The translations under genes and the position numbers were made by a program. This document shows positions 1-64,000 of a stretch of 64,000 nt of DNA, one piece after another (position 1 is the stretch's first letter; each line of letters opens with the position of its first letter). Source of the stretch: Tomocerus qinae (Eukaryota; Arthropoda; Collembola; Entomobryomorpha; Tomoceridae); NCBI GenBank assembly GCA_020055645.1, contig CM034546.1:130717875-130781874 (forward strand), read 5' to 3'. The notes below the pieces were generated by a model. That model had not been told where the DNA came from. It did no database searches and saw nothing but the letters and a program-made list of their open reading frames with translations.

Positions 1-381
1 GTTCTCCTGATGCATACCAAGAAAAAATTCAAAAAGCCTTCAAAACTGTTTGGGAGCAATGAGCAAACAGTGTGGACGGAAAACCAAATCAGTTCCTTAA
101 ATTTCTTGCACATGGCTGCTATCATTTCATGAATCAGGAAACTGAAGCCGCCGTCGAGAAATGGCTAAAAATAACTACCACTCCAAATGAATCAACTGCA
201 GGGATTTATTTTAATGTATGATCAACATTATAAAACTTACAACTTATAATTACATTGGCTACCGACATTCATTTAATTAAACCAATAGAGTGTAATATTC
301 AGGGAACAAAAAGCCGTTCTTTTTTACAAAAAAGGAAAAAGCAATATTTTTTAAAGCAGGGTCAGTCCTTTTTACCTTTTT

Positions 382-1472
382 AGCTCGCCTGAGGAAGCGA
401 GCTTATAGAACCGCACAGTCCGTCCGTCCGTTCGTCCGTCCGTTCGCCAACACTGTAACTTTTGAACGCAACGACGGAAGTTAACCAAACTTAACAAAAA
501 CAATGCCTACGGACCAGTGACGAACCGTATTCATTTTGGTTCAAATCGGTCTATAGGTTGCTAAGATGCCGCGCGCTCGACTTTGTCTTCATTTTGATAG
601 TCAAAATGAAAAATTGGCATTAAATGGACATTAAAAGTTTAATTGTGTTTCCTAAGAATTGTTAGATAATAGTATATAATATTTAACTCCGCTTCGACCA
701 AATTTAAGATTTTATAATAAAGTAAATATAACAGGAAAATAACTATTATAGGACGGAAATAAATCTATTTCGCATTTATATGAAATTGATAGTCAAATTT
801 ATATTTTTCGAATTTCTTTTCATTATGATAGCCAACATTAATCAATTTTGATTTTCTGTTGATTTTCATAGTTAGCATTAAACAATTTTGTTTTTCTGCT
901 GATTTTCATAGTCAACATTAATCACTTTTGATTTTCTGTTGATTTTCATAGTTAGCATTAAACAATTTTGTTTTTCTGCTGATTTTCATAGTCAACATTA
1001 ATCACTTCTGTTTTTCTGCTGATTTTCATAGTCAACATTAATCACTTCTGTTTTTCTGCTGATTTTCATAGTCAACATTAATCACTTCTGTTTTTCTGCT
1101 GACTTTCATAGTCATAGTCATAGTTGATTTTCAAAGTCAACATTAATCAATTTTAATTTTCTGTTGATTTTCATAGTCAACATTAACAATTTTGAGTTTT
1201 TGTTGATTTTCTTAGTCAACATTAATTAATTTTGATTTTCTGTTGATTTTCATATTCAACAATTATATATTTTGATTTTCTGTTGATTTTCATAGTCAAT
1301 GTTAATCTGCTTTGGTTTTCTATTGACTTTGATGGTCAAAATTCGTAAATTTTGATTTTGATACTGAATATTAACCAATAGATATGAAAATAAGCCTATT
1401 TCTATTATTCTACTAAAACTGTGTACACGGTCCCTTTCACTCAGGCGAGCTTCTGTTACGGCTTGCCGTAGG
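382..1472. mobile_element. AGCTCGCC-family element nested in the MITE
   Basis: The element starts AGCTCGCCTGAGG and carries CTCAGGCGAGCT close to its right end. It is flanked by TTTTT on both sides (377-381 and 1473-1477). It interrupts the MITE between a CCTTTTT and an ACTTT that are adjacent in the free MITE copies. The first 30 bases can form a small hairpin (AGCTCGC with GCGAGCT). Shorter relatives lie at 28375-28931 and 42318-42584, with a right-end scrap near 27109. No coding sequence is seen. The superfamily is unknown. Confidence 0.7.
830..1320. repeat. Minisatellite inside the nested element
   Basis: About ten units of roughly 48 bp, each built on the words TTTTCATAGTCAACATTAAT and TTTTGATTTTCTG with alternating variants. 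The short relative at 28375 has only one or two such units, so most of the size difference between family members comes from expansion of this minisatellite. The same array recurs at about 22560-23050. Confidence 0.85.
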
Positions 1473-2393
1473 TTTTTACTTTGTTTACATGTAAAGTGGA
1501 AGTAACTGAGGCACGCTGATACCTTTTTAATAAAAAAGGTAAATAAAGGTCTTTTTGTTCCCTGGTAATACTATTCACGCATCCAGTATGCTAACAAGAG
1601 ATCACATTAATACTTTCATAACATTCTACTTCTCAAAATATTATAATTTTGAAAACATTTTATAGTTGATAGCTTTTAAGAAGTAAGAAAATTTTATTAA
1701 AATTGAGTATTTTGCAAGGGAAAAAGTTTTAAGTAAGAAAGATTTTAGTGTTTCAAAACATGTATTTGCATTTTTATTATTCTTTCCATTCCATTATTTT
1801 TTCTGTCTACAAATGAATTATTTTATTCAAAAAGACTTATTTCGGTTATAATTATTGTTTTCGCAAAAAATTTAAGGCTAAATTAAATATCTAAAAAGAT
1901 ATAATTTTGCCCAGATTTTAAACGTTTATGAAAAGGATTTTAGGTCAATAAAAATATTTGAAGTGGGCATTTAGCATTCGGATTATGCACATGTTATTGT
2001 TATTGATTGTAGGAATCTGTTTTTTTGCAGGATCTGCAAAGTGTTAAAAAGACACATTGTTGGACGCAGCAAGCTGGAGATATTATGTTAAAACTAGAAG
2101 ATATTCAGAGATTACTTGAAATGAAAATCCGTAGGGCAAGAAACCCAAACGATGAGAAAATATTGCAATTTCATAAAGATAGTATATTGTCTAATAGATC
2201 AACAGACAGAAATGGAGGAGAAATCCTCGGTCTCAAGGGCGAGGTTGTCAAAATTGGCGAGAGCGAGGCGACAACTCAAGATCTTCACAGAGTCAGGCTT
2301 ATTATGGTGGTCATCAGAGACGACAGTATGACGCCAACTACCAAAGACGAAATCCTAGCCCAGATAATTGGCGTTCTTAGGTATAACCCATAG

Positions 2394-3704
2394 AATTCCT
2401 TAGGGAAAGATAACTTTGTTTACACTGATTGATTTGGGGTAAAACCCATCTAAATTAAACAGTTTGACGATATTTTTGAGGTTTTATTATCATAATTTTA
2501 TTTGCATGTTGTTGGTCGTGCATAGTTGCTTATCAAAATGTTCTTATTCTAATCTGGTCTCAATTGCTGGAAACATTTACTATTTTGATAGGAGTTAGGT
2601 ACCACGTTTCTTATTTACAGAAAATTAATTCAATTGTCTCATCTTACAATCTTGAGCATTATTGAAAATTTTGACAACATATTGTCCGATAATTGACTTT
2701 AAAATTAACTGAAAATTTATTTATTCTTTTCAGCAAATATTTTTGATGCTAAAATCCTCGTTTTAGATTTTTATTGGGAACACATGTAGCACATCTTTTA
2801 CAATAGTATTGCTTAATTCTATCACATCAAAACTTATCAGAAAAAAATTTTGCAACATTATTACAAATTCATGGCTACACTCATCTTGAATATACATTTC
2901 ATACATAAATCACTAGGCCTAATGGATACTGTCGTATTTATCTAGTTTACCCTCAATACTAATAAATAATTCTGCCGACTTCTCATTACTGTTGTCCAGT
3001 AAATATTGCAATAGAGCACTTAACCAATTTATTAATAAGGTTGTTGGTTTCTTATACATTGGTATACATTAGGCACGCATATGTGGTTTTGCTTGTTTCT
3101 TATCAATCATGACATCATGACTTGACCAAAGTTGTAGTACATGCAAGCATAAGCATTACTTGTAACTATCTACTTATAGAAGTGTGTAATGCTTTATTTG
3201 TTTTATGTAGTAGTTAATTAATATATGGATAGAATTGTGAAGGATATTTTAGGAAATTTATATTACATATCGTGTAATTATTATTTTAATTGGCTTAATA
3301 AGTGTGGTTTATGGTTGGTTTTACTTTAATATACAATCGTCTTCAATTTCCTTTCTGACAATTCTAAGTAATTGAAACAAGATTGGCATTTTAATTGTTA
3401 TTTCCACTGTATCATTAATAATAAACCTCTACTTAAGCATTCAGTTTATTAAACTGTGCCTAGTAGTAAGTTTAATATTATTAAATATCGGTAGCAAATA
3501 AAGAGGTACGTACTATGAAATCTAAATTCTTAAATACAATTTCAACTTTACTAAATTCGTTAAGCAAACAGTTTTAATTAAATTTTTGAAAATGTTTGAA
3601 TGAATATTTAGAATAGCGTACAATAATAAATCCGGAAAACGGAGGCTGACAAGTGCATACTGGAGAAAATAAGAAACATTCTGTGAAAATCATAGTGGAT
3701 TAAA
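2394..3704. other. Spacer between TPR-like gene and VAMP
   Basis: AT-rich DNA with no open frame, splice-site pattern or repeat that I can interpret. It presumably holds the 3' end of the TPR-like gene and the promoter of VAMP. Its twin is 24113-25436. Confidence 0.5.
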
Positions 3705-3732
3705 ATGGAGAGGAATGATAAAGATTCTATTA
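3705..3732 (+). pseudogene. VAMP, first nine codons only (copy 1)
   Basis: The start codon and the first 28 coding bases (MERNDKDSI) are identical to the VAMP gene at 25437. A transposon begins at 3733 and the rest of the gene does not return anywhere in the following 18 kb. This copy cannot encode a SNARE protein. Confidence 0.85.
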
Positions 3733-4135
3733 CACAGAGAAAAAAGTTGTAGTCCACAAGCTGTGTAAACTCAAATTTACGCAACATTGAAAATTAATTC
3801 ATCAACATGCAACTATTAATTACTCAGCATCATGTCTAATGCTGATCGACCACAGAACTGCTGAAACTTTTCCTAAGGTTGTATTTCTTGTTGTGTATTA
3901 TTTCACAGCAGAATCAAGTGAAACCATTGCGTACAACATTGAGCATATAATAATGAATGTTGTATAATTACCGGGAAAAATACAGATGTTGGTTAATAAT
4001 TAAACAATGTTGTTCTTTGCTGGCATTTCAATCATTCAATCTAACCACGAAGCACTGTACAATTACTGACTGTCAAATTTGTTTTGAAAATTTTGTCTTC
4101 AAACTTTACTTAAAATTTTAAACCCGGATATTGGA

Positions 4136-7100
4136 ATGGATAGTTTTACAACCCAAGTGCTGGAGAGAGCTAAAGTTTCAAGTTTAATTCCAAAATTTGC
4201 AGGTAATTGTTTTAATTTTCTTTACATCATCATTATTTTATAGAATTGGCTGGATTTAGACAGCTGAACTCGTTGACTCTGTTGCATGCTTTCGTTACCC
4301 CTTCCCCCATTGCCCCTAGTTTAGTTACTTAATTTATTACTTTAATATATTATCCCCGTTCCCAATAGTCATTATTTTTGCCTCTTTTTGGCCTAACCTA
4401 GTAAAAAATAAACCGTTGACTGTTGTATTGCTGAAGCACAACAAACAAAAAATAAAATTTTTGATTGGGTTAGGTCAAAAAATGGTAAATATGGTAACCG
4501 GAACCAAATGGAAAAAACGTAATAGGCTTACGGGCTAAACTAGAGGTACCGGGAGAGGGGACGACGGAGGCAACAAGATCCCGGTACAGACCTAAATCCA
4601 GCCGCGAAAGGTTCAAATTTAATCCTAAAATTTGCAGCTAACTACCTTTAATTTAATTTTCTTAATCATCATTAGTTTTGAATTTACAATTTTTTGTCTA
4701 AAAGATTTTGTCCCATTATTGTTGTATTTTCAAGTTTTTAATTTATTTTCAGAAGAAGAAATAGACAAGGATGTCCTTTTGAAAATTTTAAATTCGGAAG
4801 AAGGATCCATTGAAGAGCGACAGTTTGTTACGCTGGTACCAATCACAGGACAACGAGTAAGAATATTGTCGGCGATTCGTAGTTTTTTGTCCGAAGAAGG
4901 AAAAGAAAACCAAGGAAATTTGGAAGATACGACTACGACTATCGAAATATCAGATTCTAATTTGGTAAAATGTATCAAATATACATGTAGTTTATGTTCA
5001 ATGCAGCTTGAAACTTTAAGTGATTATTGGACTCACTTAAGAAAATTTCATGAATTGAAAGGTAGCAAAGCTAGAATATCGTGTCCATTTTGTAAAATGT
5101 TATTTAGTGATCTATATCACCTTAAACGACATTTGTTTAAAAACGTATGCAAATCTAACAAACTAGATTTATCGACGAAATATATTACGGAAAGTAGAGG
5201 TAGTAAAAAAGGTTTGGTATCATCTGTTTCTGAAGTATCTGAAGATGTCGTTATTGAAGGTAATGACTTTAGCGATAATACACGTGAAAAACCTGTATTA
5301 GGCTTTATAGCCTCTTTGCAAAAAGATGGATACCTTCCTTATCGAAATCTCGTCAGATACTTCAAAGCGCCAATACTTTGGTAAATGATATATTAATAGA
5401 TTTAAAAAATGACTTGATTTCATCCATAAATGGCTTGTCTATTGAGGACAAAGTAAAAATTTCATCGATAGTTGACGCAGCTAAAAATCCAATAGACATT
5501 GAGTTTTCGTCTAACTATAAAGTAGAAAAATATTTGCAATCGAAAGGTTTTCTTATTAAAGCTAAAGAACTTACTTTGGGTAATGAAATTACGTACAATC
5601 CAATTAAAAGGAAGTATAAAAAGACATTCCACAATATGTATTATTTCAAACCAGATTTGTTATTAAGCTAGATTTTTAAAAATTATGATTTGGTAAAGTT
5701 TTTGAAAGGAAATGATAATGAAAATGAAATATATACTTCTTTCAAAGATGGCAGTTATTGTCATCAATTAAAAACTAATGACCACACGATATACGTTCAG
5801 CTTTTCTACGACGACTTAGAAGTGTGTAATCCGTTAGGTAGCAAATCTAATCTACACAAGCTAGGAATGTTTTACTTTTCTATTAGTAATTTCCCGCGCC
5901 ATATTAACTGTAAATTAGACTTTATATTTCCTTTAGCTATTGTGAAAACTAGATATATTAAGGAGTATGGCATGAACAAAATATTAGAACCAATTGTTAA
6001 TTCATTAGTTAAATTAAACGAAGGAGTGGAAATTAATAACATAAAATGCAATGTACAACTTCTTCAATTTTGTGGTGACAATTTGGGATTACATGCATTA
6101 TTGGGGTTCTCTGAAAGTTTCGTAGCAAATTTCCCATGTCGATTTTGTAGGGCACCAAGACAAATGTGCCAGCAGCTAGTTTATGAACAGGAAAGCCTGC
6201 GGCGAACAACAATTAATTACGAAACGGATTTAACGATTTCGGATTTATCCAGAACAGGAATAAAACACAACTCAATTTTAAATTCAATTCCTAATTTTCA
6301 CGTTACAAAAAACTTTGCTCCTGATGTCATGCACGACTTTCTAGAAGGAATTTGCCACGAAGAAATTAAATTACTTTTAAAGCACATTATTTCTACCAAA
6401 CGTTTGTCTATTGAACAAATTAATTTTAGAATTAAAAACTCCGTATATAAAAATTCTTATCAAAGTAGTCGCCCTCCCAATTTAACAATGAACTATATAG
6501 AAGGAGACTCCCATTCTGGTATGACAGCTTCACAAATGCTGACATTTTGTTTATATACACCAATTTATTTTGGGGATATAATTTCAGAAAAAAATGAAAT
6601 TTGGATTATGGTAATGCTCCTAAGAAAAATAATAAGGATCGTATTGTCTCCATTAATTAGTTCAACGGGAATTTTAAATCTTAAAACAACCATCGAGGAT
6701 CATCATTTATTATTTCTTAAAGTTTCACACAGCCACCTAAAACCGAAACATCACCATTTATTGCATTATCCCCATGCAATAGAGCAGTTAGGACCTCTAA
6801 AGCAATTTTGGGCGATGAGGTTTGAAGCAAAACATAGATTTGCTAAGTCAGTTGTTAAAAATACAACAAATTTTATCAATATTCCTAAATCAGTTGCAAA
6901 TAGATATTCATACAATTTAGCGTCTTTGTTTCAAAAGGAAATAAATGATGATGATTCCATGTCTATTGGTAAAGGAGTTGATGTTCTAGTAAAGGATAGT
7001 GAGTTTGTTATTCCTTTAGTTGAATCTGGATTAGAATTAACAGACACAATTTTTTGTTACACAGTTTATTGATTATAATGGCACTACCATAAAGGCCGGT

Positions 7101-7364
7101 GATGTATTTGTCTCTAATTTTAATGAACATGGTCCCAATTTTGTACAAATTTTTGCTTGCTTGCTACACAATAGCGTTCCTTTATTAATTACAAGGAAGT
7201 ATAACTGTATTGAAAATGTTCTGTCATATTCTTTTGAGGTATTAACACAAGAAAATTATTTAGTTGAAAAATGTAAAACATTAATGTTAGAATATTATAT
7301 TCCATGTGTTTCCAGTTTTGATAAAAATTGTAACATATTACTATGCCCATTTCAAATTGTGTAA
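4136..7364 (+). pseudogene. Transposase-like gene of the CACTA-like element
   Basis: Exon 1 (4136-4202) starts MDSFTTQVLERAKVSSLIPK and joins in phase to exon 2 at 4753 (EEEIDKDVLLKIL), giving a SAM-like N-terminus. Next come two C2H2-type zinc fingers (about 4984-5150: CSLC...H, CPFC...H). The core lies at 5690-7072: the block YVQLFYDDLEVCNPLG, a GDNLG stretch, then CRFC, and later FAPDVMHDFLEG. This order resembles the catalytic region of CACTA/EnSpm transposases, with the Asp of GDN and the Asp of PDVMHD as candidate catalytic residues (inferred). A C-terminal piece continues at about 7060-7364 in another frame. The frame changes near 5380, 5670-5690 and 7060, so at least three breaks separate the pieces. 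The intron carries a MITE. Confidence 0.65.
4248..4603. mobile_element. MITE in the transposase intron
   Basis: A 356-bp insert with ends GGCTGGATTTAG and CTAAATCCAGCC. The end sequence resembles the inner arms of the palindromic element at 25644 (GGCTGAATTTAGGCAGCGG). About 75 bp of flanking sequence, including the 3' end of exon 1, is present in diverged form on both sides (about 4174-4247 and 4610-4680), far longer than a normal target duplication. Confidence 0.6.
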
Positions 7365-7378
7365 TTTAAATTTTAAAG

Positions 7379-9767
7379 ATGACTCCCGATCCAAATGTAT
7401 TTTTTCAAACAAGTACCGTAGATGGCACTGAATCTCAGTTTGTACTTCATTTTGTGGTAATAACCTAAATGTTTTTAATTATAAATAGAAATGTCAAAAA
7501 TAAAGTCATACGCATTTTAAAAAATGGCATTTCGTTTTTATATTTTAGAACAATAATGATGACGTTTCTACTGAACAAGGTGTAGTAACTGAAGCCGATT
7601 CACACGATAATGCTACGACAACCTCCGCAAATGTTTGCGCAACTGACATATTATTTGTAAGTGAATTGTTACGTTTATTACATGTGATGTTATTAATAAT
7701 GATTATTATCGTATAGTGACACTATAAATATCTATTTCTGCAATAATCTTATATGTGCTCTATTTTTTATGTAACAATTTTTATTTAATTTTAGGATATA
7801 CACAACATACTGAAGGACACAGATGTGAAAAAAAACTCTGTGAAAGGAGCGAATATAATAATAGCGTGCCAGAAGGGAAGTTTGAATTTTCAAGAAAAGA
7901 AAACCTTAAAAAGCAGAGCAGTTAAGAATATGGTCGACAGATTTGGTTATTAGTGAGTATTTACCACAAAATTGACATCTCTAAAATTCAATTAAATTTT
8001 AAAAAACTTAATCCGTTGGTTTTTAATAGTCCATCTAAGGATATCAAAGAAAATTTAGCATCTTGTATTGCTTCGCAATTGTTTCCCAACTTACCGCTTT
8101 TCAAAAGGCTCGAAATACAGGTAATTTTAAAGCTATAGTGAATTGATTCATAAATTAAAGGTTCTTCTATATAATTAATGATACAATTTTGCTTAATTAC
8201 TTACAGGAGTCGTTTTATTCGTCTTCAAAATTAATTAAGCCTAGAAAAACCAGGAAATGAATATGGCGTCTCAGTCTCCTTCTGCCAAGGAATTGAGAAT
8301 TCCAGCTACAGGCTTTATTGAAGACTATCTTAAGCGCTTAAGGCAACAAAAAGGTGTAAGGATAATGCAGCCAAAGCTAAAACAAAAAGGGGGTATGCGT
8401 TTATTTTATCCATATTGTGCATATTGTATCGGTTATATTATATTTTTTTATATGAAATTGTTGTACATTTTGAACAAATAGATGACAATGAATCTTCAAA
8501 TACGGAAGATCTTGAAAGACAAAGGGAGATGCAAAAATGGCTGCTGCATTCAAAGGGACCTTTAGATGTGGTCTGTGATTACATGAAACAAACTGCGGCC
8601 ATCAGAAGAGACGACTTTTTGACTTCAGATAATTTAAAATCTGCTTTAAACAGTTGGCCTAGGCTACTAGACACTCCCGGAATGGTAACTTCCGTAATAA
8701 TATATTCCTGCATGATTCTGATGGTGATGATAATGATGATTCTCTTATAAGTACTGATAATATATTTATTTCAGATCTACAATGATTTTAATTGGCTACA
8801 CCCTGATCAGGGGGAACATCTTGTTCAGAAATGGGCGAATATATCAACCAAAATACTTGAGTACGCCAAAAACTTAAATATAGACATTAGCGAGTGGGAT
8901 GGGCATAAATTACCGTGTGACTTATCAACAGGTAACCACTGCCTAAAATTGTTTTACATATATACTACCATGTAACAACAACATGTATAAGATAACTAGA
9001 AATCGTTATAATGTTGTTAACTTTATTAATATTCGTAGATCAGACTGAACTACTGGCGTTCCTGTTACTGCCGAAAATTTTACAACAAACTAGCAAACGG
9101 GGCAGAAAACGAAGTCGAATTACGGCAGTAGAATCTATGGATTACTTCATTTCTTTTGTTCCGGTAATACCAATACTTCGTTAAAATAATTTATAGCATA
9201 TTTTTAATGTCTTATATGTTTATTTAGGCTTGTTAATTAAAAGGTGATCAAAGTTTTATTGTTTGCTATAGGCCAATATATTTTAATTTGAATGGCAAAT
9301 TACTATAGTTAAACTATTTGTTTGTTATTTGTCTCACCAATTTTTTTTAAAACTGCTATACCCTATGTTAAAGTAAATAATTATACATTTAGTAAACTGG
9401 TTTGGTTAATTTGTAGTTTTAAATGATATTTATGATACTCTTATAGGTGGGAACAGACTTGGAATCCCTGCGTTGGAACGAATCAAAAAGAAAACAGCCG
9501 TTTATTGTTTGTATGGGAAACGTATTTACTTTAGAAGTCAGCGAAGTTTATGTTATGGTTGAACGGGAACTTATTTGTGCCTCGACGATGATTGGAGCAG
9601 TGGATTGTTGCTACAAAACATTTTTTATTTTACAAATTGAATTCCCAGAAGAATGTTCATCTGTATGGTCGTTTTTTGAACACTGCATTTATGAAATGAA
9701 GGTTTCTGGACGATTATCGAGTGCTTGCCTTTTACTCAGCGCATTTGTTGGAGAAAATACGCTTTAA
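7379..9767 (+). pseudogene. Second gene of the CACTA-like element
   Basis: A chain of short exons can be followed from ATG at 7379 (MTPDPNVFFQ): 7379-7455, 7551-7657, about 7795-7951, about 8030-8118, 8207 onward, then 8257-8700, 8775-8930, 9040-9162 and 9447-9767. Clean GT and AG signals are visible at most borders, such as GTAAGT at 7658 and TTTTAG before 7795. The frame near 8250 is unclear, with a TGA close to an internal ATG. I do not recognise a catalytic domain. A second open frame of this type next to the transposase-like gene is what I would expect of a two-gene CACTA-like element, so an accessory role in transposition is inferred from position only. Confidence 0.5.
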
Positions 9768-10600
9768 ATATAATTATAACGTAAAAGCTCTGTGGAATTT
9801 AATTTTAATTGCATGCATATATGGTACGAATTGATTGTACTTTTATCAGGTTAGTTCCCTCCGATGAACTCAAAATAAATCTCACTTTTGTTTGGACTTA
9901 AGTTCATAATGTAAAAATATATTTTTATATTTCATATGTTTTATACTTTCGCAAGTATAAAACATATATAAAATATAAAAATTATACTACAAAGAAGATA
10001 TATATATATCATCTTTAAAGTTTTCGAAAAGTGAGATTTCTTTTGAAACTCTTCGTGAGAACTAACCTATAATAAGATCTAAATTTAAAAAAAATTGATT
10101 TTCTCCATATTTATGTTATAACTAAATAATAAATTGTTTTGTGTTAACTAAGTTAATTAATTCACATATATGAGCTGTATATATATAAATATATTCTCTA
10201 TTATATGTACTACTTCATATATATAAACATAGAATGGGCATGTATTTATAATGCCATGTAGTATAATAACTTTTGTGTTTGGTAATTTTTGTAATTTTTA
10301 ATTAATTTTGTCTAATAAAGAGTTATTCCAAAATTAAATGAAGTCGAAACAAATTTTCATCTATTTTATATAACGTAACATCAATCTATCATTCACTCAA
10401 TGGTTGCATATATTAGGCCCACATAGGTTGTGCAAAGTGTTCACAACTTTGAGAACTCAGATACGGCTGTTGTGCAAATTGAAATGCTCAACGTTAAGCA
10501 CTCATACACCGATGGTTGTAAAAAGGTTGCACAACTCTCGGCATTAAAATACACAACATTTGAGTAAAACGGAGTTGTGCAAAAAGTATACAGAATGCGA

Positions 10601-11896
10601 GACTTCTTAAAGCTAAATGCCGTAATTCATTGGAACATTGTATCTGTCGAAATCAGGCTACCATGTTTAAAATTAAATGAAATTTTTAACGTAAAACTTC
10701 ATTCAATATCACATTACCCTTTTGTCACAAACTGATTAAGAAAGTAAACACATTGCTCCAGGGCCCGAGGAAATACTGTACGATGAGTAGAATGCATTTC
10801 AGATACATATATTTTATGCATAAATTCCAATTCAACCCGTGGCAAACCCCCATAGAAAATCTCAAAAAGTAAAGAATTTTTTTTTGACGTCATCTGCAAT
10901 ATATCTTAAATGGGAAATTCTTTGGCTGAATTTAAGCAGCGGTACCTCGTTGCCGGTGTTTCCGGTACACTTGCTGCCCAATCATTTTTTACCGGCAACA
11001 CTGGCAACGTCAATACCGGATACACAAGCAACACCCTCATCTGATTGCCTTTACCATTTATAGTATCGATTGAGAATAGGCCATTTTGAGGTCAAGTTAG
11101 CCTCCATTGATAATGTAGCGTCAAGTGGTCAATTAGAAAATATACTTTTGATTGTAAAATTTTGGTCCAATAAGAGAGAGTTTGAACTTTTATACGGGAC
11201 TTTCTTCAAATTCATCCCATTATTCCAGAGTTCCAGTGTATAATTTTGATTCTCACTGGCATGAAGTTGTTCTGGTTCGGACTTCGGACGTGTTGAGGTT
11301 TGCCTCATGAAGTACGTTCTGTTAAGTAGGATTTAATTGCTTGGTGGCGTTTTAGATTTACGGCAAATCAACACACAGAAGTACAAACAGGCCGACGGAA
11401 TTGGTCACCTCGCATGTCTAACATTTGCTTTATCTAATAGTAATGATTAGATGCTATTAGTATAATATATACTACACATGTCATTGCCACATGTAAATGT
11501 AACCTTAAGTACATTCACTTCCATACTATACAACTACAACGTCTACACTACAACTACAACAACTAGAAGAACAAACAAAATCCCTCCACTGCTATTTGCT
11601 ATTCTTATAGTGCACACTACGACTATGATAAGTATCCCAAATCCCGAGTCTGCTTCTTCGGCTCATTCCGTCGTCGTCGTCGAAGCGGTAAGCAAAGCAG
11701 CTTAAGTGACAAAACAGAGTAGTAACAAACAACAAAACAAAAGGTGAAAGGAATAAGGAACTAAAATTTTTAAGTCAGTAAAGCCGTCCAAAACGGGTAG
11801 TACTGGTGACTGGTGATTTCGGAAAGGTTCGCATTATTTAATAACTGATGATTACTTTTGTAGAATGTAAGTTCAAGGTTAAAAAATATATAATCC
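10601..11896. other. Intergenic; scrap of GGCTGAATTTAG family
   Basis: No supported gene. A minus-strand open frame of 61 residues lies at 10714-10899 but has no recognisable domain. Bases 10924-11050 resemble the arms of the palindromic element at 25644 (GGCTGAATTTAAGCAGCGGT, then variants of TTGCCGG), so this is a decayed relative. Short CAACTACAAC and GTCGTC runs lie near 11530-11690. Confidence 0.5.
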
Positions 11897-11904
11897 TTAA
11901 TCAG

Positions 11905-12045
11905 CAAGGCCACAGCGTGGGGGGCACCGGGGCAAGTGCCCCGCCCGAAATCGAGAAAAAGAAATTTTGTATAAAATCGCAAAAATTTTCGCAAAAGTTG
12001 GCTTTTTTTTGGTGACCCCCGAATTATTTTCTGGCTGTGGCCCTG
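11905..12045. mobile_element. hAT-type MITE, 141 bp
   Basis: Terminal inverted repeats CAAGGCCACAGC and GCTGTGGCCCTG are flanked by a perfect 8-bp target duplication TTAATCAG (11897-11904 and 12046-12053). A GC-rich core (GGGGGCACCGGGGCAAG) sits next to the left end. An 8-bp duplication with CA...TG ends is the hAT signature. It is noncoding and lies about 500 bp upstream of KNTC1. Confidence 0.9.
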
Positions 12046-12563
12046 TTAATCAGTGATGTCATCTGACGCTTGTCACTTGTGATTTCTTTAATTTTTCAGA
12101 ATTTTGGTCATAGTTACAACCACAACACAACCAGGGGTTCATAAAGGAGCAAACGTTTAAGGTAATTATTATCTGTCATCATCATATTATATGCCATCTG
12201 TCCAAACTGTATTCGATAACCATGCCGTCGTTTTGGAGAAAAAGTTCATAACGAAGCAACGGCCATGAGTTAGAAGTCAAGATAGTCAGATTTATTTATG
12301 CAGATTCCTCCCCGTCATATAGTTGATAGTACAGCAGCATAAAACTATACAGCCTATACTGTAAGATGAAATGCAATGGACAGTCACCTCAGCTGTCCTT
12401 GCATTTGCATACTAGGATGGGCGAGCTTTGGCGTCCTTTCCAGTGTGTCGCAATCTCATTGGATTGCGCACGGTTGACTCCTGTGATCCCACCCACTACA
12501 ACAAATTACGTGGAAATGCATGCACTATTTTTTCTCTGATTTCGACATTTTTAAATTTTACAG

Positions 12564-15500: not shown

Positions 15501-17837
15501 AGCTTTTTATACAAGCGGAAATTGAACGATTCATTGCCAAATTCCTCTTCCCGTTTGCAAGTAGAGAAGAACTTGTCTTGGATGACTTGTTTGAATGCCA
15601 CATCAAGGTCAGTGCTAAAGACAATTTTCTAAACAACGAATTCTATTAATAGTTAATGTAAATATTGTAAATAGTAAATATTGTAATCAATTTTCTTTTG
15701 GAGCAGGCAGTGATGCAAGATCTACCGTATTTCATTAGTTCCACGGATATCCCTTATCAAGATCGTATTGTTACGCTCATCTCGTATATTTCTTCAACTG
15801 TGATCAAACTTCGGTGCGTACTATTGATTGCTATGGAATGGCCAGTCCCATGGTCGGCCATAATCGACAATATGGTTTCTAAAACATTGCAACTCAAAGT
15901 AAACGATGATCACGTCTGTTTCGATATGCAAAAGAAAATAAAAATTCTCAGGGATCAGGTTCCCTTCCGGTGTTTACTTATCAAGCATCGATTAACCGCT
16001 GCCAAAGTTAGGCGATCAGATGGACTCCATGTAAGTTATAATTTTAGGAAGAAATCAATAATTCATTTCCGGTCTTAGGAAGGGAACCTCAGATTTTAAA
16101 AAGTTTTGTCTGAAATTATACTAAAAATGATTTAACTCTTTTTGATTGGATGTTTTCTTCCTGTTTCTGTTTGCAGATGGCTCTTAGGAGAATATTAAAG
16201 CACAAAAAGGCGAATTACATGGAAGACTGTTTTGAGCTCATTCGGCATTCAGATATTTTCACGGAGGAAGATGTGTTGGTGATGAAGTTCATGTTGACTT
16301 TAGAAAATAATGAAGGAAATGTGGAAGACAACATTCCAAGTGGAAGTACCTCTATGCTCAAACAAATTTTGTATCGTCTCCACCAGCATTTTCGATGCAT
16401 CGACGCCAAAGGCATTACGGAGCTTCCCACCAGATTTGTATATGACTGAGCAGGACTGGGAGACTTTCAGTTTGGCCACCAAGATCGTTGCGAGTAAACT
16501 AAACCACACGCCTACGTTAGAATTTCTCCAGTTACGGAAGTTGGTTCCGGATTTATGGGACGTGGACACGTCATACTCAGCCAACTATCCGTTTTCTGTT
16601 CTTGCCGAATACTTGCCGAAATCGGCTCACAAATCATCTTCAGAAATCATAGCCGACTGTAGATCACTGGGTGACATCACTTTCCACCACTCCACGGATA
16701 TCCTTGCAGCTGCTGCCATGTATTTTGAGCCAGAAAAGGACCAATCTCTGGAGAAATGGTGGGACATCGTCACAGCTATTGTCCGAACTCCAGATATACT
16801 GTCAAAGACCAATCCCATTACCGAGAACGCCGCTTTTAATATATGCTGTCTTCTCATTAAACAATGTCCCTTCGCTTCGGACGAACAAATGGAAACTATT
16901 CACGAGTTCTTGGTCCTTTATTGCTCGTCCTTTGATAAAATGCTTATGCACGTCTGCAAACTTCTTAGTATTCATCGGATATTCTCTACCCTTAGGGAGC
17001 AGGAAATCCCGTTGGAGAAAGAATTTCTATATATTTACAATTGTAAGTCTGATTCAATGAAATTGATCTTTTATTCCTTTCCTTCATTCCTTGTCTTATG
17101 GAGAATAATAATTGTTATGTCTAATCATGACAATTTTTTAATTTAGGTTATCAAGGAGGGAATGAGGATGATTGTGATAATTTCATCGACAAGCTGAAAG
17201 AGTTTGGCATCGTTTTGCTTAAGTTCGGCGAAGTTGATCTATTTAATTCCGTGTTTACAACCATTCAAAAAGATTACATGGAGCAAGTGATGCTACTGGG
17301 CAACTCTAGTGAGAAGGAAGAGGAAAGAAAAGCATATCTGTATGCATGCGAACATATTAAGGAATTACAAAGGGAACTACTCAATATCCGGTCTCAAATC
17401 AATGAAGAGGAGAGCAATATGTAAGAGAATTAAAAGCAATTAAAATTTTATTATTTTTTGTTCAAATAAATGATTGTTTTGTTTTCAGAGTCATCAACGA
17501 GTTACTGGTTGAATTAAACGAGGTTGGAATCACTCTGAATGCTTATGCTCTGCGGAAACGGAGCAAAAAGAAGTTGGTGGAAAAGTTAACCGAAATGAGA
17601 CATTTCGATCTTGCTTCTGGAGTTGCGCTATTCTTCGGCTTTAAGGAGAAGGAGTCTTGGTCAAGAATCCTCCAAGGATTTTTGAGCTTGAACGACGCTG
17701 CTAAACTGCGAAAAGTCCTGGAAAGAATCAAAAATTATCACGAGCTTTGGATTCTTCCCGAATTTGCAATGGCTTGGTTGTGCGTGTCCAAAGATGATCC
17801 TGGTTTCAAATCAATGTGCCCAATTCCTCTCATGTAA
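12564..17837 (+). pseudogene. KNTC1: KNTC1 / Rod kinetochore protein, frame-broken
   Basis: KNTC1 (Rod) is the large scaffold of the RZZ complex (with ZW10 and Zwilch), which builds the kinetochore corona and holds the spindle checkpoint. Twelve exons can be drawn: 12564-12725, 12885-13108, 13209-13297 plus 13298-13465, 13596-13786, 13854-14401, 14551-14840, 14930-15607, 15707-16030, 16177-17042, 17147-17420 and 17489-17837. Family resemblance is clear at KGRFDEAEQLTRQYGKDMDI (exon 13854), at WPVPWSAIIDNMV (exon 15707) and at LRKVLERIKNYHELWILPEF (last exon). Splice phases agree. The reading frame breaks near 13290 (two bases short in a TA run), near 14643, near 14700 and near 16400. The total is about 1,390 codons against about 2,100-2,200 in flies and vertebrates, so much of the middle is missing. 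It is either a pseudogene or a real gene with assembly indels. Confidence 0.75.
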
Positions 17838-19096
17838 TATTATACCAATCATATAAAGTCCACTTATTCTCGCTGTCACTGACGGTAGTAATGGTAGTAT
17901 TAACATTAATCTATTGTATAAACGGAAATTATAAATACTCTGACGTCATAATAACTCCGCCTAATGTTATAATATACTATTGTGTAGAGAAGTATAGTAA
18001 CGCAAGCAACTGGTTACAGTAACACTCAAAAATTTGCGCGAAATTCATAATCAGTCCCGATATTAAACGAGCGGATAGTATATTCATACCGATGTTTGTA
18101 CTTAAATGGAGTAGATGGTTAAATTTGTTCTTTTCTAGTTACATACAGTAGTGTTATAGCGTTCAGTTCTCTACAGATGTTTTCTTTCTTATTGTATAAG
18201 CGGTATTATGGAAGAAATCATGAACTGAATCAGGACAATAGTATGAATGCTGTGTAATAGGCAAATTATATTTATCAAAATATGATATTATGTATTACCA
18301 CTCCAAATGTCTTATCAATATTGTAATAATATTAATTATAACCTTTGTGAACGCAGCTGAGTGGAACAATTGAATCTGTATTTTGATATTCGCATGATAA
18401 AAATAAAAATAGTTTGATTATGCTCTATATAGCATGATAACATTTATTTATGGTATATAGGTTATAAACCTGACGTGGCAATCTATTGCGTGATGTCCTT
18501 TGACAGCCAATAATAGTGTTGTCGGGCCCAACTGGCGTACACATAGGTATTATGAGAGAGAACTGTATATTGATTTTGTCGCTCAACTTGACAAAACAGA
18601 CGTGAGTAATGCACCAAAACAGTTGAGTAGGGGGAGGCCAAATTTGGTCGGGTGGCCAAAGCTTGTGCTTACCAAAATACACAGTAGGGGATCGGCCGTA
18701 CTCACGCTCTCCCCTTGAGTAGCTGGGCTGAGTCGGCTGAGATTTTCATCGTTGATTGTTCGCCCTGACTTCAATCGTCGGGGGTCGGCGAAAGAGAAGT
18801 AGTTCTGTTCCGTTACTCATTACCCCACTCAATCTACTCACAGCTGGGTATAAATACAAGCTCTCCTTTCCTCAATTCATTTATTCCGCTCTCCAAAGAA
18901 CTGTTTTTTGAACATGTATGGATCATTTCAGTGATTTATTATTGTGCGTTTGCACATTTTGCCAAACTATCCCCATTGGTCAAATTTGCGGCAAAAAACT
19001 TTTGCCAAATCGACCTACCACCGATTTATTTTATATTTTGATAATACTCACAATCTATGGCGTAATTTATTCCAAAAATTCATTTTGATATTATAG
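17838..19096. other. Intergenic, GC-richer patch
   Basis: No gene is supported. Bases 18510-18900 are richer in G and C than their surroundings and end with a TATAAATA box at about 18847 followed by a pyrimidine-rich stretch. This could be a promoter of the TPR-like gene downstream or a piece of a transposon. I see no flanking duplication that would settle it. Confidence 0.4.
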
Positions 19097-19761
19097 GTCG
19101 TTTTGCTAGATCAGTCCAACTTTAATTGGAGTTATTTACTGGTTATGCGACTTCGATATGTCCGAAAGAAGTTACATGGTTCAAATTCCAAACCAAGCAA
19201 GGAAGAAATAGATGCCGCTGTTTGTGCAGTTGAACTAACAAAAGGAACGGTGCATGAAGCATACTGTCTGGGCGCCTACTGCCAGGCACTCGGAAATCCT
19301 GCATTGGAGATGGAAAAACAAAGAGCCAGGCCAACGATTTGTATTTTTGGAAACCAAGAATTTACTTCTACAGAAGCACTCCAATATATAAAAGATAATG
19401 CAAAGTACACATTTTAAAGCCTAGTTTTTAAATTAAGAAAATTTTTAACTGTAATTTTTAATTTTGACTTTTGACATAAACCACTAAAGAGTTACATAGT
19501 GCGGGCACTAAAATTTATTCAAAATCCTTTACTTTTTGAGTATTAAATAACTAACTCGAAAAACTAATTTCATTATCTATTAAAGCAAGAAAATTTTAAA
19601 ATTCAAATACCACAATTTCTCTTCATTTGCTTTCACTTTGTGTTTTTACAAAAGGCAGAAAAATCAAAAAACACTGAATTTTTAAGATTGGCTCCTATCT
19701 GCTTTTTTAAAATAAAAAGTCAATTTTTGCTTGTTCTTTGAATAAAGCTAATACCATTTTC

Positions 19762-21367
19762 AATAATTGAGTTTACTAGAAGAAGAAGTGCCGATTTCAA
19801 AATCTGTATATGTAGGGATAAAATAAACAAAATTTTAGGGGTCATTCAACAATTTTGGGATACCAAATGTGATTAAAAAATTAAATTGTAAAATGAATCG
19901 CTTCAGGTAGCAGTGGTGATCTCTTTTTTGGGCTATTAGAAAAAATGTTTGCTTGATCGCAAAAAAATCCGCACAGATATCAACAAAACTTAAATTAAAT
20001 TCAGAGATTACTGTCGTCATCCACGAGTTCTGACAGGTGATTTAAAATTTGACCTAGGTCAAGCCCCTCTCTCTATGGTCCAAATTTTTTGTCATTAGCT
20101 AATGAAATTGTAGATATCCAAGACTTAAATTTATACGATTTCCAAAATGCATTTTAAGAGGTACCGTGAATAGCGAATATTATGCACTCATAATAAAGAA
20201 ATTAATATTGGGACAAATGCAAATCTAAATCTTATTTGCATGGACATTTGAGGTATTGGAAATAACTTGTGAATTAAAAGATGCAGTAATATCTACAGCT
20301 AAAATCTGGAAATTAAATTGAACATAGTCATGAAACTGAAGTTTCACGGTAAAGAGATTTTGTGTCACTTGAGTTGACTTTGAAAGCTTTGTATCCATTT
20401 TGAAACGAAAGGAATAAAAGGTTAATAATATAAGTTTATTGGCCTAAAACCTTCCTAAAACAAATAAGATTAATTTTTAAAGGTTTTATCTCTAAGTAAT
20501 TTCCAATTATTCAACTATGTCCATACAAATGAGGTTGCAATGAGATTTAAATTTAGCATTCATCCTAGAGAGTTGCACTGGCACATGATACAGAATTTTC
20601 ACGGGCGAGCACAGGCAGATCAAGGATACCCACGGGTGGGCACGGGCAGCCACGGGTAAATCGGGATGCTCACGGGCAGGCATGGGCTCATTTGCCACGG
20701 GCAGGAAAATTCATGCAACTCGCGGGCGCCAGTATATACCCGTAAATATATATAGTAAAAATACCAAAAATTTTGTTTTTTTGTGTGCCCGGCCCGTGCT
20801 CATACTACAAATTTCTCACGGGCGGGCACGAGCACACAGCACAGAATTTTCACAGGTACAGGCGGGCAGGACACGGGCCAATCAAAGATGCTCACGGGCG
20901 GGAGGCAAAGACAAATCCGAAAGCTCACAGGCGGTACGAGCGGGCATGGGCTCATTTTCTACGGGCACGGTATTCACGGTATTTGCTTCATTAAATCCTA
21001 CCCCTTAAAATACATTTTGGAAATCGTATAAATTTATGTCATTATGTCATGGAAATCTGCAATTTCATTGGCTAATGACAAAAAAATTGGATTAATCAAA
21101 GAAGGGCTTGACCGAGGTCAAATTTTGAATCACTGTCAGAAGAACTCATGGTGACGACTGTAATATAGACTACAAATATGACGGTCTACGTGGTTTACGG
21201 AATTTCTGAATTTGAAAGAAAATGTAAAATATTATCTATTCAAACAGCAAATGTGCGCGGAAATAGTTTATGAAAATACCCCCAGGTCTGCAGTTGACCG
21301 AAAATCTCTATGGTAATTATTGGATTTTTTGAAATCGGCACTTCTTCTTCTAGTAAACTCAATTATT
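19762..21367. mobile_element. Foldback element with CACGGGC words, in intron
   Basis: Arms of about 400 bp are inverted copies: the outer 41 bases (AATAATTGAGTTTACTAGAA...) at 19762-19802 return as the complement at 21327-21367, and further matches continue inward to about 20165 and 20985. The centre (20590-20960) is filled with degenerate CACGGGC/GGGCACGGG words. The right end lies 11 bases before the AG acceptor of the next exon of the TPR-like gene. No transposase is seen, and no clear target duplication. Confidence 0.75.
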
Positions 21368-22030
21368 TTCCTTTACAGTTTGGCTTTGCAGTCTCCTAGT
21401 GTTACTTTTGGAGAGCTAATAAGATATGGCGAAATGTTTTCGTCTATGCTACCCTGGGAACATCGTGACAACGATTTGGCAAAGGAATTCTATAATGCAT
21501 GTTTAATTTCTGGTTCGGAAAACAGTAAAGCGAACCACAAAATAGGCAAATTTTTTCTGAACGGGGTTGGTACAACATTCTTATTCAAATATTACACACT
21601 GAGTATAATTAATAATTTATATTTTATTTAGTATAAGGATGTAGAGAATGCCGTAATTCATCTAGAAAAAGCTGTATAGTGTGAACCTTTTAATTTTCCG
21701 GGATGGCTGGACTTGATTCAAACTTTATTGGGTTCTCCTGATGCATACCAAGAAAAAATTCAAAAAGCCTTCAAAACTGTTTGGGAGCAATGAGCAAACA
21801 GTGTGGACGGAAAACCAAATCAGTTCCTTAAATTTCTTGCACATGGCTGCTATCATTTCATGAATCAGGAAACTGAAGCCGCCGTCGAGAAATGGCTAAA
21901 AATAACTACCACTCCAAATGAATCAACTGCAGGGATTTATTTTAATGTATGATCAACATTATAAAACTTACAACTTATAATTACATTGGCTACCGACATT
22001 CATTTAATTAAACCAATAGAGTGTAATATT

Positions 22031-23297
22031 CAGGGAACAAAAAAGCCGTTCTTTTTTACAAAAAAGGAAAAAGCAATATTTTTTAAAGCAGGGTCAGTCC
22101 TTTTTACCTTTTTAGCTCGCCTGAGGAAGCGAGCTTATAGAACCGCACAGTCCGTCCGTCCGTTCGTCCGTCCGTTCGCCAACACTGTAACTTTTGAACG
22201 CAACGACGGAAGTTAACCAAACTTAACAAAAACAATGCCTACGGACCAGTGACGAACCGTATTCATTTTGGTTCAAATCGGTCTATAGGTTGCTAAGATG
22301 CCGCGCGCTCACTTTGTCTTCATTTTGATAGTCAAAATGAAAAATTGGCATTAAATGGACATTAAAAGTTTAATTGTGTTTCCTAAGAATTGTTAGATAA
22401 TAGTATATAATATTTAACTCCGCTTCGACCAAATTTAAGATTTTATAATAAAGTAAATATAACAGGAAAATAACTATTATAGGACGGAAATAAATCTATT
22501 TCGCATTTATATGAAATTGATAGTCAAATTTATATTTTTCGAATTTCTTTTCATTATGATAGCCAACATTAATCAATTTTGATTTTCTGTTGATTTTCAT
22601 AGTTAGCATTAAACAATTTTGTTTTTCTGCTGATTTTCATAGTCAACATTAATCACTTTTGATTTTCTGTTGATTTTCATAGTTAGCATTAAACAATTTT
22701 GTTTTTCTGCTGATTTTCATAGTCAACATTAATCACTTCTGTTTTTCTGCTGATTTTCATAGTCAACATTAATCACTTCTGTTTTTCTGCTGATTTTCAT
22801 AGTCAACATTAATCACTTCTGTTTTTCTGCTGACTTTCATAGTCATAGTCATAGTTGATTTTCAAAGTCAACATTAATCAATTTTAATTTTCTGTTGATT
22901 TTCATAGTCAACATTAACAATTTTGAGTTTTTGTTGATTTTCTTAGTCAACATTAATTAATTTTGATTTTCTGTTGATTTTCATATTCAACAATTATATA
23001 TTTTGATTTTCTGTTGATTTTCATAGTCAATGTTAATCTGCTTTGGTTTTCTATTGACTTTGATGGTCAAAATTCGTAAATTTTGATTTTGATACTGAAT
23101 ATTAACCAATAGATATGAAAATAAGCCTATTTCTATTATTCTACTAAAACTGTGTACACGGTCCCTTTCACTCAGGCGAGCTTCTGTTACGGCTTGCCGT
23201 AGGTTTTTACTTTGTTTACATGTAAAGTGGAAGTAACTGAGGCACGCTGATACCTTTTTAATAAAAAAGGTAAATAAAGGTCTTTTTTGTTCCCTGG
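22031..23297. mobile_element. hAT-type MITE with nested element (copy 2)
   Basis: Second-copy counterpart of the composite at 300-1564, with the same ends, the same nested AGCTCGCC-family element and the same minisatellite. It sits in the intron between the third and last visible exons of the TPR-like gene. Confidence 0.8.
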
Positions 23298-24112
23298 TAA
23301 TACTATTCACGCATCCAGTATGCTAACAAGAGATCACATTAATACTTTCATAACATTCTACTTCTCAAAATATTATAATTTTGAAAACATTTTATAGTTG
23401 ATAGCTTTTAAGAAGTAAGAAAATTTTATTAAAATTGAGTATTTTGCAAGGGAAAAGTTTTAAGTAAGAAAGATTTTAGTGTTTCAAAACATGTATTTGC
23501 ATTTTTATTATTCTTTCCATTCCATTATTTTTTCTGTCTACAAATGAATTATTTTATTCAAAAAGACTTATTTCGGTTATAATTATTGTTTTCGCAAAAA
23601 ATTTAAGGCTAAATTAAATATCTAAAAAGATATAATTTTGCCCAGATTTTAAACGTTTATGAAAAGGATTTTAGGTCAATAAAAATATTTGAAGTGGGCA
23701 TTTAGCATTCGGATTATGCACATGTTATTGTTATTGATTGTAGGAATCTGTTTTTTTGCAGGATCTGCAAAGTGTTAAAAAGACACATTGTTGGACGCAG
23801 CAAGCTGGAGATATTATGTTAAAACTAGAAGATATTCAGAGATTACTTGAAATGAAAATCCGTAGGGCAAGAAACCCAAACGATGAGAAAATATTGCAAT
23901 TTCATAAAGATAGTATATTGTCTAATAGATCAACAGACAGAAATGGAGGGAGAAATCCTCGGTCTCAAGGGCGAGGTTGTCAAAATTGGCGAGAGCGAGG
24001 CGACAACTCAAGATCTTCACAGAGTCAGGCTTATTATGGTGGTCATCAGAGACGACAGTATGACGCCAACTACCAAAGACGAAATCCTAGCCCAGATAAT
24101 TGGCGTTCTTAG

Positions 24113-25436
24113 GTATAACCCATAGAATTCCTTAGGGAAAGATAACTTTGTTTACACTGATTGATTTGGGGTAAAACCCATCTAAATTAAACAGTTTGAC
24201 GATATTTTTGAGGTTTTATTATCATAATTTTATTTGCATGTTGTTGGTCGTGCATAGTTGCTTATCAAAATGTTCTTATTCTAATCTGGTCTCAATTGCT
24301 GGAAACATTTACTATTTTGATAGGAGTTAGGTACCACGTTTCTTATTTACAGAAAATTAATTCAATTGTCTCATCTTACAATCTTGAGCATTATTGAAAA
24401 TTTTGACAACATATTGTCCGATAATTGACTTTAAAATTAACTGAAAATTTATTTATTCTTTTCAGCAAATATTTTTGATGCTAAAATCCTCGTTTTAGAT
24501 TTTTATTGGGAACACATGTAGCACATCTTTTACAATAGTATTGCTTAATTCTATCACATCAAAACTTATCAGAAAAAAATTTTGCAACATTATTACAAAT
24601 TCATGGCTACACTCATCTTGAATATACATTTCATACATAAATCACTAGGCCTAATGGATACTGTCGTATTTATCTAGTTTACCCTCAATACTAATAAATA
24701 ATTCTGCCGACTTCTCATTACTGTTGTCCAGTAAATATTGCAATAGAGCACTTAACCAATTTATTAATAAGGTTGTTGGTTTCTTATACATTGGTATACA
24801 TTAGGCACGCATATGTGGTTTTGCTTGTTTCTTATCAATCATGACATCATGACTTGACCAAAGTTGTAGTACATGCAAGCATAAGCATTACTTGTAACTA
24901 TCTACTTATAGAAGTGTGTAATGCTTTATTTGTTTTATGTAGTAGTTAATTAATATATGGATAGAATTGTGAAGGATATTTTAGGAAATTTATATTACAT
25001 ATCGTGTAATTATTATTTTAATTGGCTTAATAAGTGTGGTTTATGGTTGGTTTTACTTTAATATACAATCGTCTTCAATTTCCTTTCTGACAATTCTAAG
25101 TAATTGAAACAAGATTGGCATTTTAATTGTTATTTCCACTGTATCATTAATAATAAACCTCTACTTAAGCATTCAGTTTATTAAACTGTGCCTAGTAGTA
25201 AGTTTAATATTATTAAATATCGGTAGCAAATAAAGAGGTACGTACTATGAAATCTAAATTCTTAAATACAATTTCAACTTTACTAAATTCGTTAAGCAAA
25301 CAGTTTTAATTAAATTTTTGAAAATGTTTGAATGAATATTTAGAATAGCGTACAATAATAAATCCGGAAAACGGAGGCTGACAAGTGCATACTGGAGAAA
25401 ATAAGAAACATTCTGTGAAAATCATAGTGGATTAAA
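24113..25436. other. Spacer upstream of VAMP, copy 2
   Basis: Same AT-rich spacer as 2394-3704. No gene seen. The ATG of VAMP follows at 25437. Confidence 0.5.
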
Positions 25437-26820
25437 ATGGAGAGGAATGATAAAGATTCTATTAGTGGAGAAGAAGTGCCTGGGAATCAGAAATCTCAAA
25501 TAACGAAGCTGGAGCAGGTCCAGGCTCAAGCAGATGAAGTCACGAATATAGTAAGAACCTCTGTAGAACTACTTATGAAACGAGGCGAAAATCTAGACAA
25601 TATTGTACAGCAGTCTGAAACTCTAAAAGAAGAAACGTGTCTACAGGGTGTCAAACTAGGATTCAGGCCCTATGTATCTAAAGAACTGTAAGTAGCACGA
25701 CAAAACCGTTAATACCAATCGAAAGCCCGTGCAAAGTTACATTGAAACACCGGTTTTCATCAACTTATTCGTACGCATTCGCTTACACCAGCAGTTCTCC
25801 CAAAAAAAGTTGAAAATATGAATAAATTACTAGCTAATTCGTGACCAAATCTCTCGCGGGGGCTGAATTTAGGCAGCGGTACCTTGTTGCCACTGTTTCC
25901 GCTGTTGCCGCTGGGAGGTATGGGGGTGAGCGGCAACAGCATGACAGTGGAGACAGTGGCGACACGCTACAACCACTGGCGGCAACAGTGGCGACACGCT
26001 ACAACCACGTGCGGCAACAGCGGCGACACGCTACAACCACTTGCGGCAACAGCGGCGACACACTGCAACCACTAGCGACAACAGAGTCACATTAATCTGA
26101 TTTCCTCTGTTGCCGCTAAACCTAATGTAAGCCAGTGCACTGTTGCTCTGAGCTCAATGCTCTAAGACAAGAGCAACACAGAGGAAACCAGATTAATGTG
26201 TCTCTGTTGCCGCTGGTCAGTGTTGCCGCTAGTGGTTGCAGCATGTCGCCGCTGTTGCTGCAAGTGGTTGTAGCGTGTCGCCGCTGTTGCCGCACGTAGT
26301 TGTAGCGTGTCGCTACTGTTGCCGCCAGGGGTTCTAGCGTGTCGCCACTGTTGCCGTTGTTGCCACTGTCTCCACTGTCATGCTGTTGCCGCTCACCCCC
26401 ATACCTCCCAGCGGCAACAGCGGAAACAGTGGCAACACAGTACCGCTGCCTAAATTCAGCCCCCGCGAGAGATTTGGTCACGAATTAGCTAGTAATTTAT
26501 TCATATTTTCAACTTTTTTTGGGAGAACTGCTGGTGTAAGCGAATGCGTAGGAACAAGTTGATGAAAACCGGTGTTTCAATGTAACTTTGCACGGGCTTT
26601 CGATTGGTATCAACGGTTTTGTCGTGCTACTTACGGTTCTTTAGATACATAGGGCCTGAATCCTAGTTTGACACCCTGTATATTTGAAAAAACTTCCAAT
26701 AATGTGCACAAGAAATCCGAGGGTAAAAACAGGAAGTTGAAAATCATTTTTGGACTCATCACTCTGATAATACTTCTTACTATGTTCATCTTCATTTTTG
26801 TCAGAATTTATTACGGCTAG
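25437..26820 (+). pseudogene. Synaptobrevin/VAMP, split by a palindromic element
   Basis: VAMPs are vesicle R-SNAREs that zip with target SNAREs to fuse membranes. The first part (25437-25643) encodes MERNDKDSISGEEVPG and then a v-SNARE motif (ITKLEQVQAQADEVTNIVRT...) with the central-layer Arg in NIVRT. The second part (26683-26820) encodes FEKTSNNVHKKSEGKNRKL, then a transmembrane helix (IIFGLITLIILLTMFIFIFV) and a stop. Together the parts make about 114 residues, the length and gap-free alignment expected of a VAMP8/brevin-type protein. A 1,035-bp transposon splits codon 69 from codon 70. Four surplus bases (TATA) remain around the insert, so even exact removal down to one TA would leave the halves out of frame. 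No AG acceptor stands before the second half, so splicing the insert out looks unlikely. Confidence 0.85.
25644..26678. mobile_element. Palindromic (foldback) element, 1,035 bp
   Basis: The ends CAGGGTGTCAAACTAGG and CCTAGTTTGACACCCTG are perfect inverted repeats, and the arms stay complementary almost to the middle (about 26110-26150). TA flanks both ends, as in TA-targeting elements of the Tc1/mariner type. Each arm carries several degenerate copies of a word like GCGGCAACAGTGGCGACACG (25930-26080 and 26210-26370). Inner arm sequence GGCTGAATTTAGGCAGCGG also occurs, decayed, at 10924 and at the ends of the MITE at 4248. No coding sequence. Confidence 0.85.
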
Positions 26821-30898: not shown

Positions 30899-30928
30899 TT
30901 AATCTGTACACAAAAAATTGAAAAAGAA

Positions 30929-63612: not shown

Positions 63613-64000
63613 TTTTAGGAATCCAGCAATTTAAAAAGTAAATCTTACCGCTGCTTTAGTACAACGTTTGCCAGGGTTTATTAATGTGCTCCATTTTTCA
63701 ACGTACCGTAGTATCGAGTATTATAATATTTTGTACTTACATATTCTCAACTTCAGTTAATTATTGATCTATTCCACATGTTACGGCACTGCATACACAT
63801 GCATACACGGACTAAGTATGAAGTATAGTTAGTGCCCTAAACTTACCACCGCTTTTTTGTCTAAAATTATAATATATGTATATATGATTGATATGTATGT
63901 AATGAACACATAATAGTACAAATATTAGGAAACTTGATTATTCTTAATATACTAAAAAGACCTTCAGGTTTTGGAAACTTTTAAAGATTGAAACTAAAAA
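63613..64000. other. Right flank of the satellite
   Basis: Nothing recognised in the last 390 bases apart from a TATATGTATATATG run near 63875. Confidence 0.5.

Follow-up and report, generated by a model that had tools for sequence, protein, structure and literature searches.

Two near-identical stretches of one chromosome of the springtail Tomocerus qinae, lying in direct orientation and differing within the window only by one-base indels, raise the question of whether part of this genome was duplicated very recently or a single locus was assembled twice. The window is a stretch of 64,000 nucleotides (C1:130717875-130781874) from a 334-Mb genome in 115 contigs, to which we added flanking chromosome as nine 10-kb stretches on the left and six on the right. 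Coordinates to the left of the window are negative, in a numbering that includes position 0.

A sequence-only reading had reported two 3.7-kb direct copies that differ by about five one-base indels and no substitutions. Global alignment of 1-3732 with 21732-25464 confirms this, with five such indels and no substitution, as does BLAST (0 mismatches, 5 gaps). The indels sit at positions 307, 579, 1551, 1721 and 2216 of the left-hand copy (A), and all but the one at 579 fall in single-base runs. The limits proposed for the copies describe what the window contains but not the true unit. The start at base 1 is an artefact of the window edge, and in the flanking chromosome the repeat extends leftwards to the positions in Table 1, so that about 11 kb of it, including most of A, lies outside the window. 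The full unit measures 14,862 bp in A and 14,861 bp in the right-hand copy (B), or about 14.86 kb, with 99.85% identity over an alignment of 14.87 kb.

Across this unit A and B show 21 differences, of which 5 are substitutions and 16 are indel events, 15 involving one base and one involving two. The number of substitutions rises from 0 in the 3.7-kb part to 5 in the whole, all confined to -9295 to -7209. Thirteen of the 16 indel events are in runs of at least three identical bases, one (-1362) is in a run of two, and those at 579 and -5313 are in no run; for one-base indels alone the figures are 15 in 14.86 kb (1.0 per kb), with 12 of the 15 in runs of at least three. No run of N was found between or beside A and B in the 214 kb examined; the sole such run there, of 100 N, spans -85662 to -85563 and is distant from A and B alike. 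A gap-bounded haplotig at the copies was rejected, there being no N there.

Table 1. Positions of the two copies, the element between them, their joints and the gene-like stretch that they share
Feature	Position	Strand	Details
Copy A	-11129 to 3732 (start = C1:130706745); right part 1..3732 in the window	.	Alignment to B
Copy B, complete	10604..25464	.	Alignment to A
Transposon copy, spacer between A and B	3733..10603	+	Left end intact (CACAGAGAAAAAAG); last 75 bp, including the right terminal repeat, missing
New joint 1	3732..3733	.	Last base of A / first base of transposon; same point uninterrupted at B/right flank
New joint 2	10603..10604	.	Right-truncated transposon / first base of B; no shared bases
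Old joint	25464..25465	.	B / right flank; undisturbed, without element or footprint
KNTC1/Rod-like coding stretch	13864..17146 (B; also in A)	+	One frame broken in B at 16421

The interval between A and B is filled, to the exact base, by a transposon of 6,871 bp. It is matched over its full length and at 99-100% identity at C4:13646332, C1:59389096 and C1:37953620, giving a family of four near-identical copies in the genome. The three other copies are complete (6944, 6940 and 6940 bp), and each is 75 bp longer at the right than the copy in the window. They have inverted terminal repeats, CACAGAGAAAAAAG and CTTTTTTCTCTGTG, the right end mirroring the start, and all three are flanked by 2-bp target duplications (TG, TA and AA), their 3-bp flanks being different. 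When 74 of the missing 75 bp were used as a query, perfect matches occurred at only the three complete copies, with three more at 79-84%.

CACTA/EnSpm elements have terminal inverted repeats starting with CAC and produce target-site duplications of 2-3 bp. The terminal repeats of the spacer transposon also begin with CAC and its target duplication is 2 bp, but the classical CACTA start is lacking. We take these ends to point to the CACTA/EnSpm group, which suggests a CACTA/EnSpm-like DNA transposon. A 460-aa frame of the element matches no Pfam family up to E 10, and the C2H2 zinc-finger matches of a 250-aa frame stay below cut-off. Another element, of 1.6 kb with 41-bp perfect inverted ends, lies inside the repeat at 19762-21367 (also in A) and has 14 more near-full-length matches at 85-99% among the scored candidates.

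At the second joint the element reads ...GCGAGAC and is followed directly by B from TTCTTAAAG; the right terminal repeat is absent, so no intact right end is joined to the target. The outer edges are different in kind. The right edge of B is crossed by a related block at C1:130522001-130523070 (around 89% identity) without the element or inserted bases there, and the left edge of A is crossed at 97.4% by a related locus at C1:129568313, in which no difference lies closer to the edge than a 4-base indel about 22 bases left of it. As related loci run uninterrupted across both, the outer edges are old, and novelty is limited to the joints on either side of the element. The element seems never to have occupied the right edge of B. 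Just to the right of B lies an imperfect palindrome of 1.04 kb (25642-26680, 88%). It is absent from the related block at 130523070, where the counterpart of 25638 is followed by that of 26679, and it looks like a fold-back insertion.

The four transposon copies at separate loci, all of one family, provide a control for the indel rate. Over 6.87 kb the pairs of copies show 5, 7, 8, 10, 11 or 14 one-base indels (0.7-2.0 per kb), without exception in runs of at least three, together with longer indels and 6-36 substitutions; the one-base indels private to each copy number 2 (window), 5, 8 and 2. Separate loci in this assembly therefore show one-base indels at a rate similar to that between A and B. 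The argument of the sequence-only reading that indels without substitutions betray one locus assembled twice accordingly fails, and within the reach of this control, one family in four copies, such divergence is ruled out as proof of double assembly. One-base homopolymer indels look like background consensus errors in the repeats of this assembly, and we infer that most of the one-base differences between A and B are consensus errors rather than mutations. The control offers no parallel for the few indels between A and B that lie outside homopolymers. In another near-identical pair of the region (1769 bp at -87430 and 121777) substitutions outnumber indels 5 to 1. The 5 substitutions in 14.86 kb between A and B are fewer than those in any transposon pair over 6.87 kb, and the earlier statement that the duplication, if real, is extremely young is upheld.

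Although the overall A/B error rate equals that between the transposon copies, the errors are unevenly placed. The departing copy was judged from relatives at 134.34 Mb and 79.09 Mb and in the 130.52-Mb block, mostly with a single relative per difference; position 579 was judged from five copies of an abundant repeat and the 130.52-Mb block. An assignment was reached for 18 of the 21 differences, with A departing in 9 clear and 2 probable cases and B in 7, and the remaining 3 are without assignment. All 8 departures in the right half of the unit are in A, against 3 in A and 7 in B in the left half. With halves chosen post hoc, Fisher tests give p 0.004, 0.011 when the two ambiguous cases are left out and 0.021 when only unambiguous indels are counted; rank tests of error position on the same three sets give p 0.056, 0.14 and 0.13. 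The number of errors per transposon copy also varies fourfold. Given this variation and the post hoc halves, the concentration of errors on the inner sides of A and B is moderate evidence for reduced read depth there, as might arise if the duplication were heterozygous or false. What argues against a contig-end effect is that no differences fall in the initial 1.8 kb of B or the final 1.5 kb of A.

Both copies contain a putative KNTC1-like coding stretch, which matches PF24520 (E 7.2e-7, 29.7 bits, cut-off 27.3) and, under its cut-off, PF24516 (E 1.3e-4). Its PDB match is weak, and a PDB search with a 278-aa frame of B returned nothing credible. Relatives at C1:134343826-134349688 (- strand) and, for the left-hand stretch, C1:129563137-129569817 show that the gene region is present several times. 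Three KNTC1-region frames on the left side of the unit, of 343, 117 and 100 codons, are open in A and in one relative (L033) and disturbed in B. On the right side the reading frames of A and B go out of register with each other at -2390 and 2216, and the open frames are similar in length, so the frames there do not show which copy is correct.

C1:130506294-130632211 is largely collinear with -39556 to 123545 of the window numbering, at about 80-97% in the parts compared, some blocks being absent, and its tail is present once more at C1:130451341 (92%). This left block and the window probably belong to an old tandem array whose units measure roughly 100-200 kb. We considered whether the block (C1:130.506-130.632 Mb) is the other allele of the window, in a comparison that covered 130501875-130551874, the matches to one locus (L018) and little of 130.571-130.628 Mb; the degree of collinearity, the missing blocks and the additional copy of the tail make the old array likelier. 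The final 1.77 kb (-87430 to -85663) of the contig that precedes the 100-N gap recur 209 kb rightward at 121777-123545 (99.66%). The same contig end is matched over 2,498 bp, with 1 mismatch and 1 gap opening, by positions 17638-20135 of an unplaced contig, C34 (66,987 bp), which continues like the right-hand copy at 121777-123545 (99.45%) and may belong in or near the gap.

Elsewhere in the window, two stretches on the - strand (44369-45487 and 50763-52763) match Lig_chan under its curated cut-off (E 1.7e-5 and 6.7e-5) and are perhaps tandem ionotropic-receptor-like genes. Three frames at 30233-33386, also on the - strand, hint weakly at a retroelement through a zinc knuckle match (E 0.0059) and an integrase C-terminal match (E 0.0085), both under cut-off. 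Self-comparison reveals tandem arrays at 39951-40807 and 62712-63617 whose shifts are multiples of about 15 and 26 bases. The telomere motif TTAGG in five-fold repeat has 531 overlapping matches genome-wide, and the first 100 of these lie scattered inside C1 and not at its ends.

On balance we lean slightly towards the view that the 14.86-kb direct duplication is real, very young and associated with the transposon. This reading is favoured by a spacer that the element fills to the base, with no N and no shared bases at the join; by a cut within 75 bp of the element end, where by our reckoning a random contig end would fall about 1 time in 100 (75 of 6944); by outer edges that continue in related loci and a substitution count below that of any transposon pair; and by an architecture matching that of Bar1 and px1 in Drosophila. 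The error skew would be unexpected if both copies were at full depth, the region is poorly assembled (the 100-N gap is 86 kb to the left, and C34 matches a contig end), and regular transposition would leave an intact right end and a 2-bp duplication, neither of which is seen. The competing reading, a false duplication, has a substantial probability; the weights given to these two are judgements and were not computed. It supposes that the transposon insertion is heterozygous and that the assembler set two haplotypes in tandem: haplotype 1 (left flank, A, element, right flank), interrupted within the element, would have been run without N into haplotype 2 (left flank, A, right flank). The inward skew of the errors, the three frames disturbed in the left part of B and an untidy region with contig-end overlap are in line with this, and false duplications with extra errors and haploid depth are described as common (PMC9516828). 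Near-identical neighbours are shared with such cases, and extra errors and haploid depth may be. Ko et al., however, describe false duplications as usually separated by gaps, with rarer cases joined by unsupported sequence (PMC9516828), whereas here there is no gap and a truncated transposon stands at the seam. The join also lacks overlap, the break near the element end would be chance alone, the would-be contig ends (1.8 kb at the start of B and 1.5 kb at the end of A) are without differences, and no second locus with the right end of the element adjoining the right flank was found in the assembly, in which near-identical right ends occur at only the three other loci.

Two further routes to a real duplication fare much worse. 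Unequal crossing-over between two element insertions 14.86 kb apart, one per homologue, is the explanation offered for Bar1 of Drosophila melanogaster, a 203.5-kb direct duplication with a complete roo retrotransposon at its seam (PMC13322080). It predicts a single element exactly between direct copies with clean outer edges, as is present here and as Bar1 shares with this locus. We nevertheless consider it very improbable: it needs a second insertion of a four-copy family exactly at the left edge of A, and crossing-over between complete copies should leave a complete element, so that this second insertion must already have lacked the right 75 bp. The scale and the element differ as well, 203.5 kb with a complete roo contrasting with 14.86 kb with a DNA transposon without its right end (PMC13322080). 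That a plain tandem duplication came first and the transposon inserted later at the seam accounts for the presence of the element and nothing further; the insertion must strike the exact seam base and the element be cut exactly where B starts, and we reject this order of events as improbable in the extreme.

The preferred reading, a real duplication, could have arisen as follows, although we hold this specific scenario only tentatively. In a single failed insertion, an element that normally gives a 2-bp target duplication would have given one of 14.86 kb, duplicating part of a KNTC1-like gene and remaining heterozygous. The left end of the element would have become attached to the end of A on one chromatid, while its right end was cut or broken with the loss of 75 bp. 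This damaged end would then have been end-joined to a sister or homologous chromosome that was broken 14.86 kb upstream and had no element there; unfinished gap repair would lead to the same product. The resulting order is left flank, A, transposon minus its last 75 bp, B (A again) and right flank, formally resembling a single insertion whose target-site duplication is 14.86 kb rather than 2 bp. A duplication that was heterozygous or rare in the sequenced material would yield fewer reads at the inner sides, and the error skew suggests that this was the case.

Direct duplications that carry a single transposon at the seam have been described before, and this locus would be one more of them. The plexus allele px1 of Drosophila melanogaster is described as a 1.5-kb partial gene duplication with a 7.4-kb DM412 between the copies (PMC13322080); it likewise joins a partial gene duplication to an intervening transposon, but with a shorter duplication and an LTR retrotransposon. 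Closer in element type, reversed-ends transposition of maize Ac, for which PMC3744419 describes duplications with intact ends and 8-bp target duplications and recovery of the reciprocal deletion, also places a cut-and-paste element at the seam of a direct duplication; the Ac ends are intact, whereas here the right end is missing. Hybrid element insertion, in which transposon ends on sister or homologous chromosomes generate rearrangements with duplications, requires intact joined ends (PMC2775673), which joint 2 does not have. Neither the intact end nor the target duplication that alternative transposition (reversed-ends, sister-chromatid or hybrid element) requires is found at joint 2. Loss of the right end is expected neither from plain crossing-over, if the elements involved are complete, nor from regular alternative transposition, in which the ends stay intact.

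If the duplication is false, a partial extra copy of a KNTC1-like gene enters the annotation. In either case, indel-only divergence is no proof of false duplication where an assembly carries such errors in its repeats. If the duplication is real, it is a fresh one with its likely agent still at the seam, and would be useful for understanding how cut-and-paste elements seed gene duplication.
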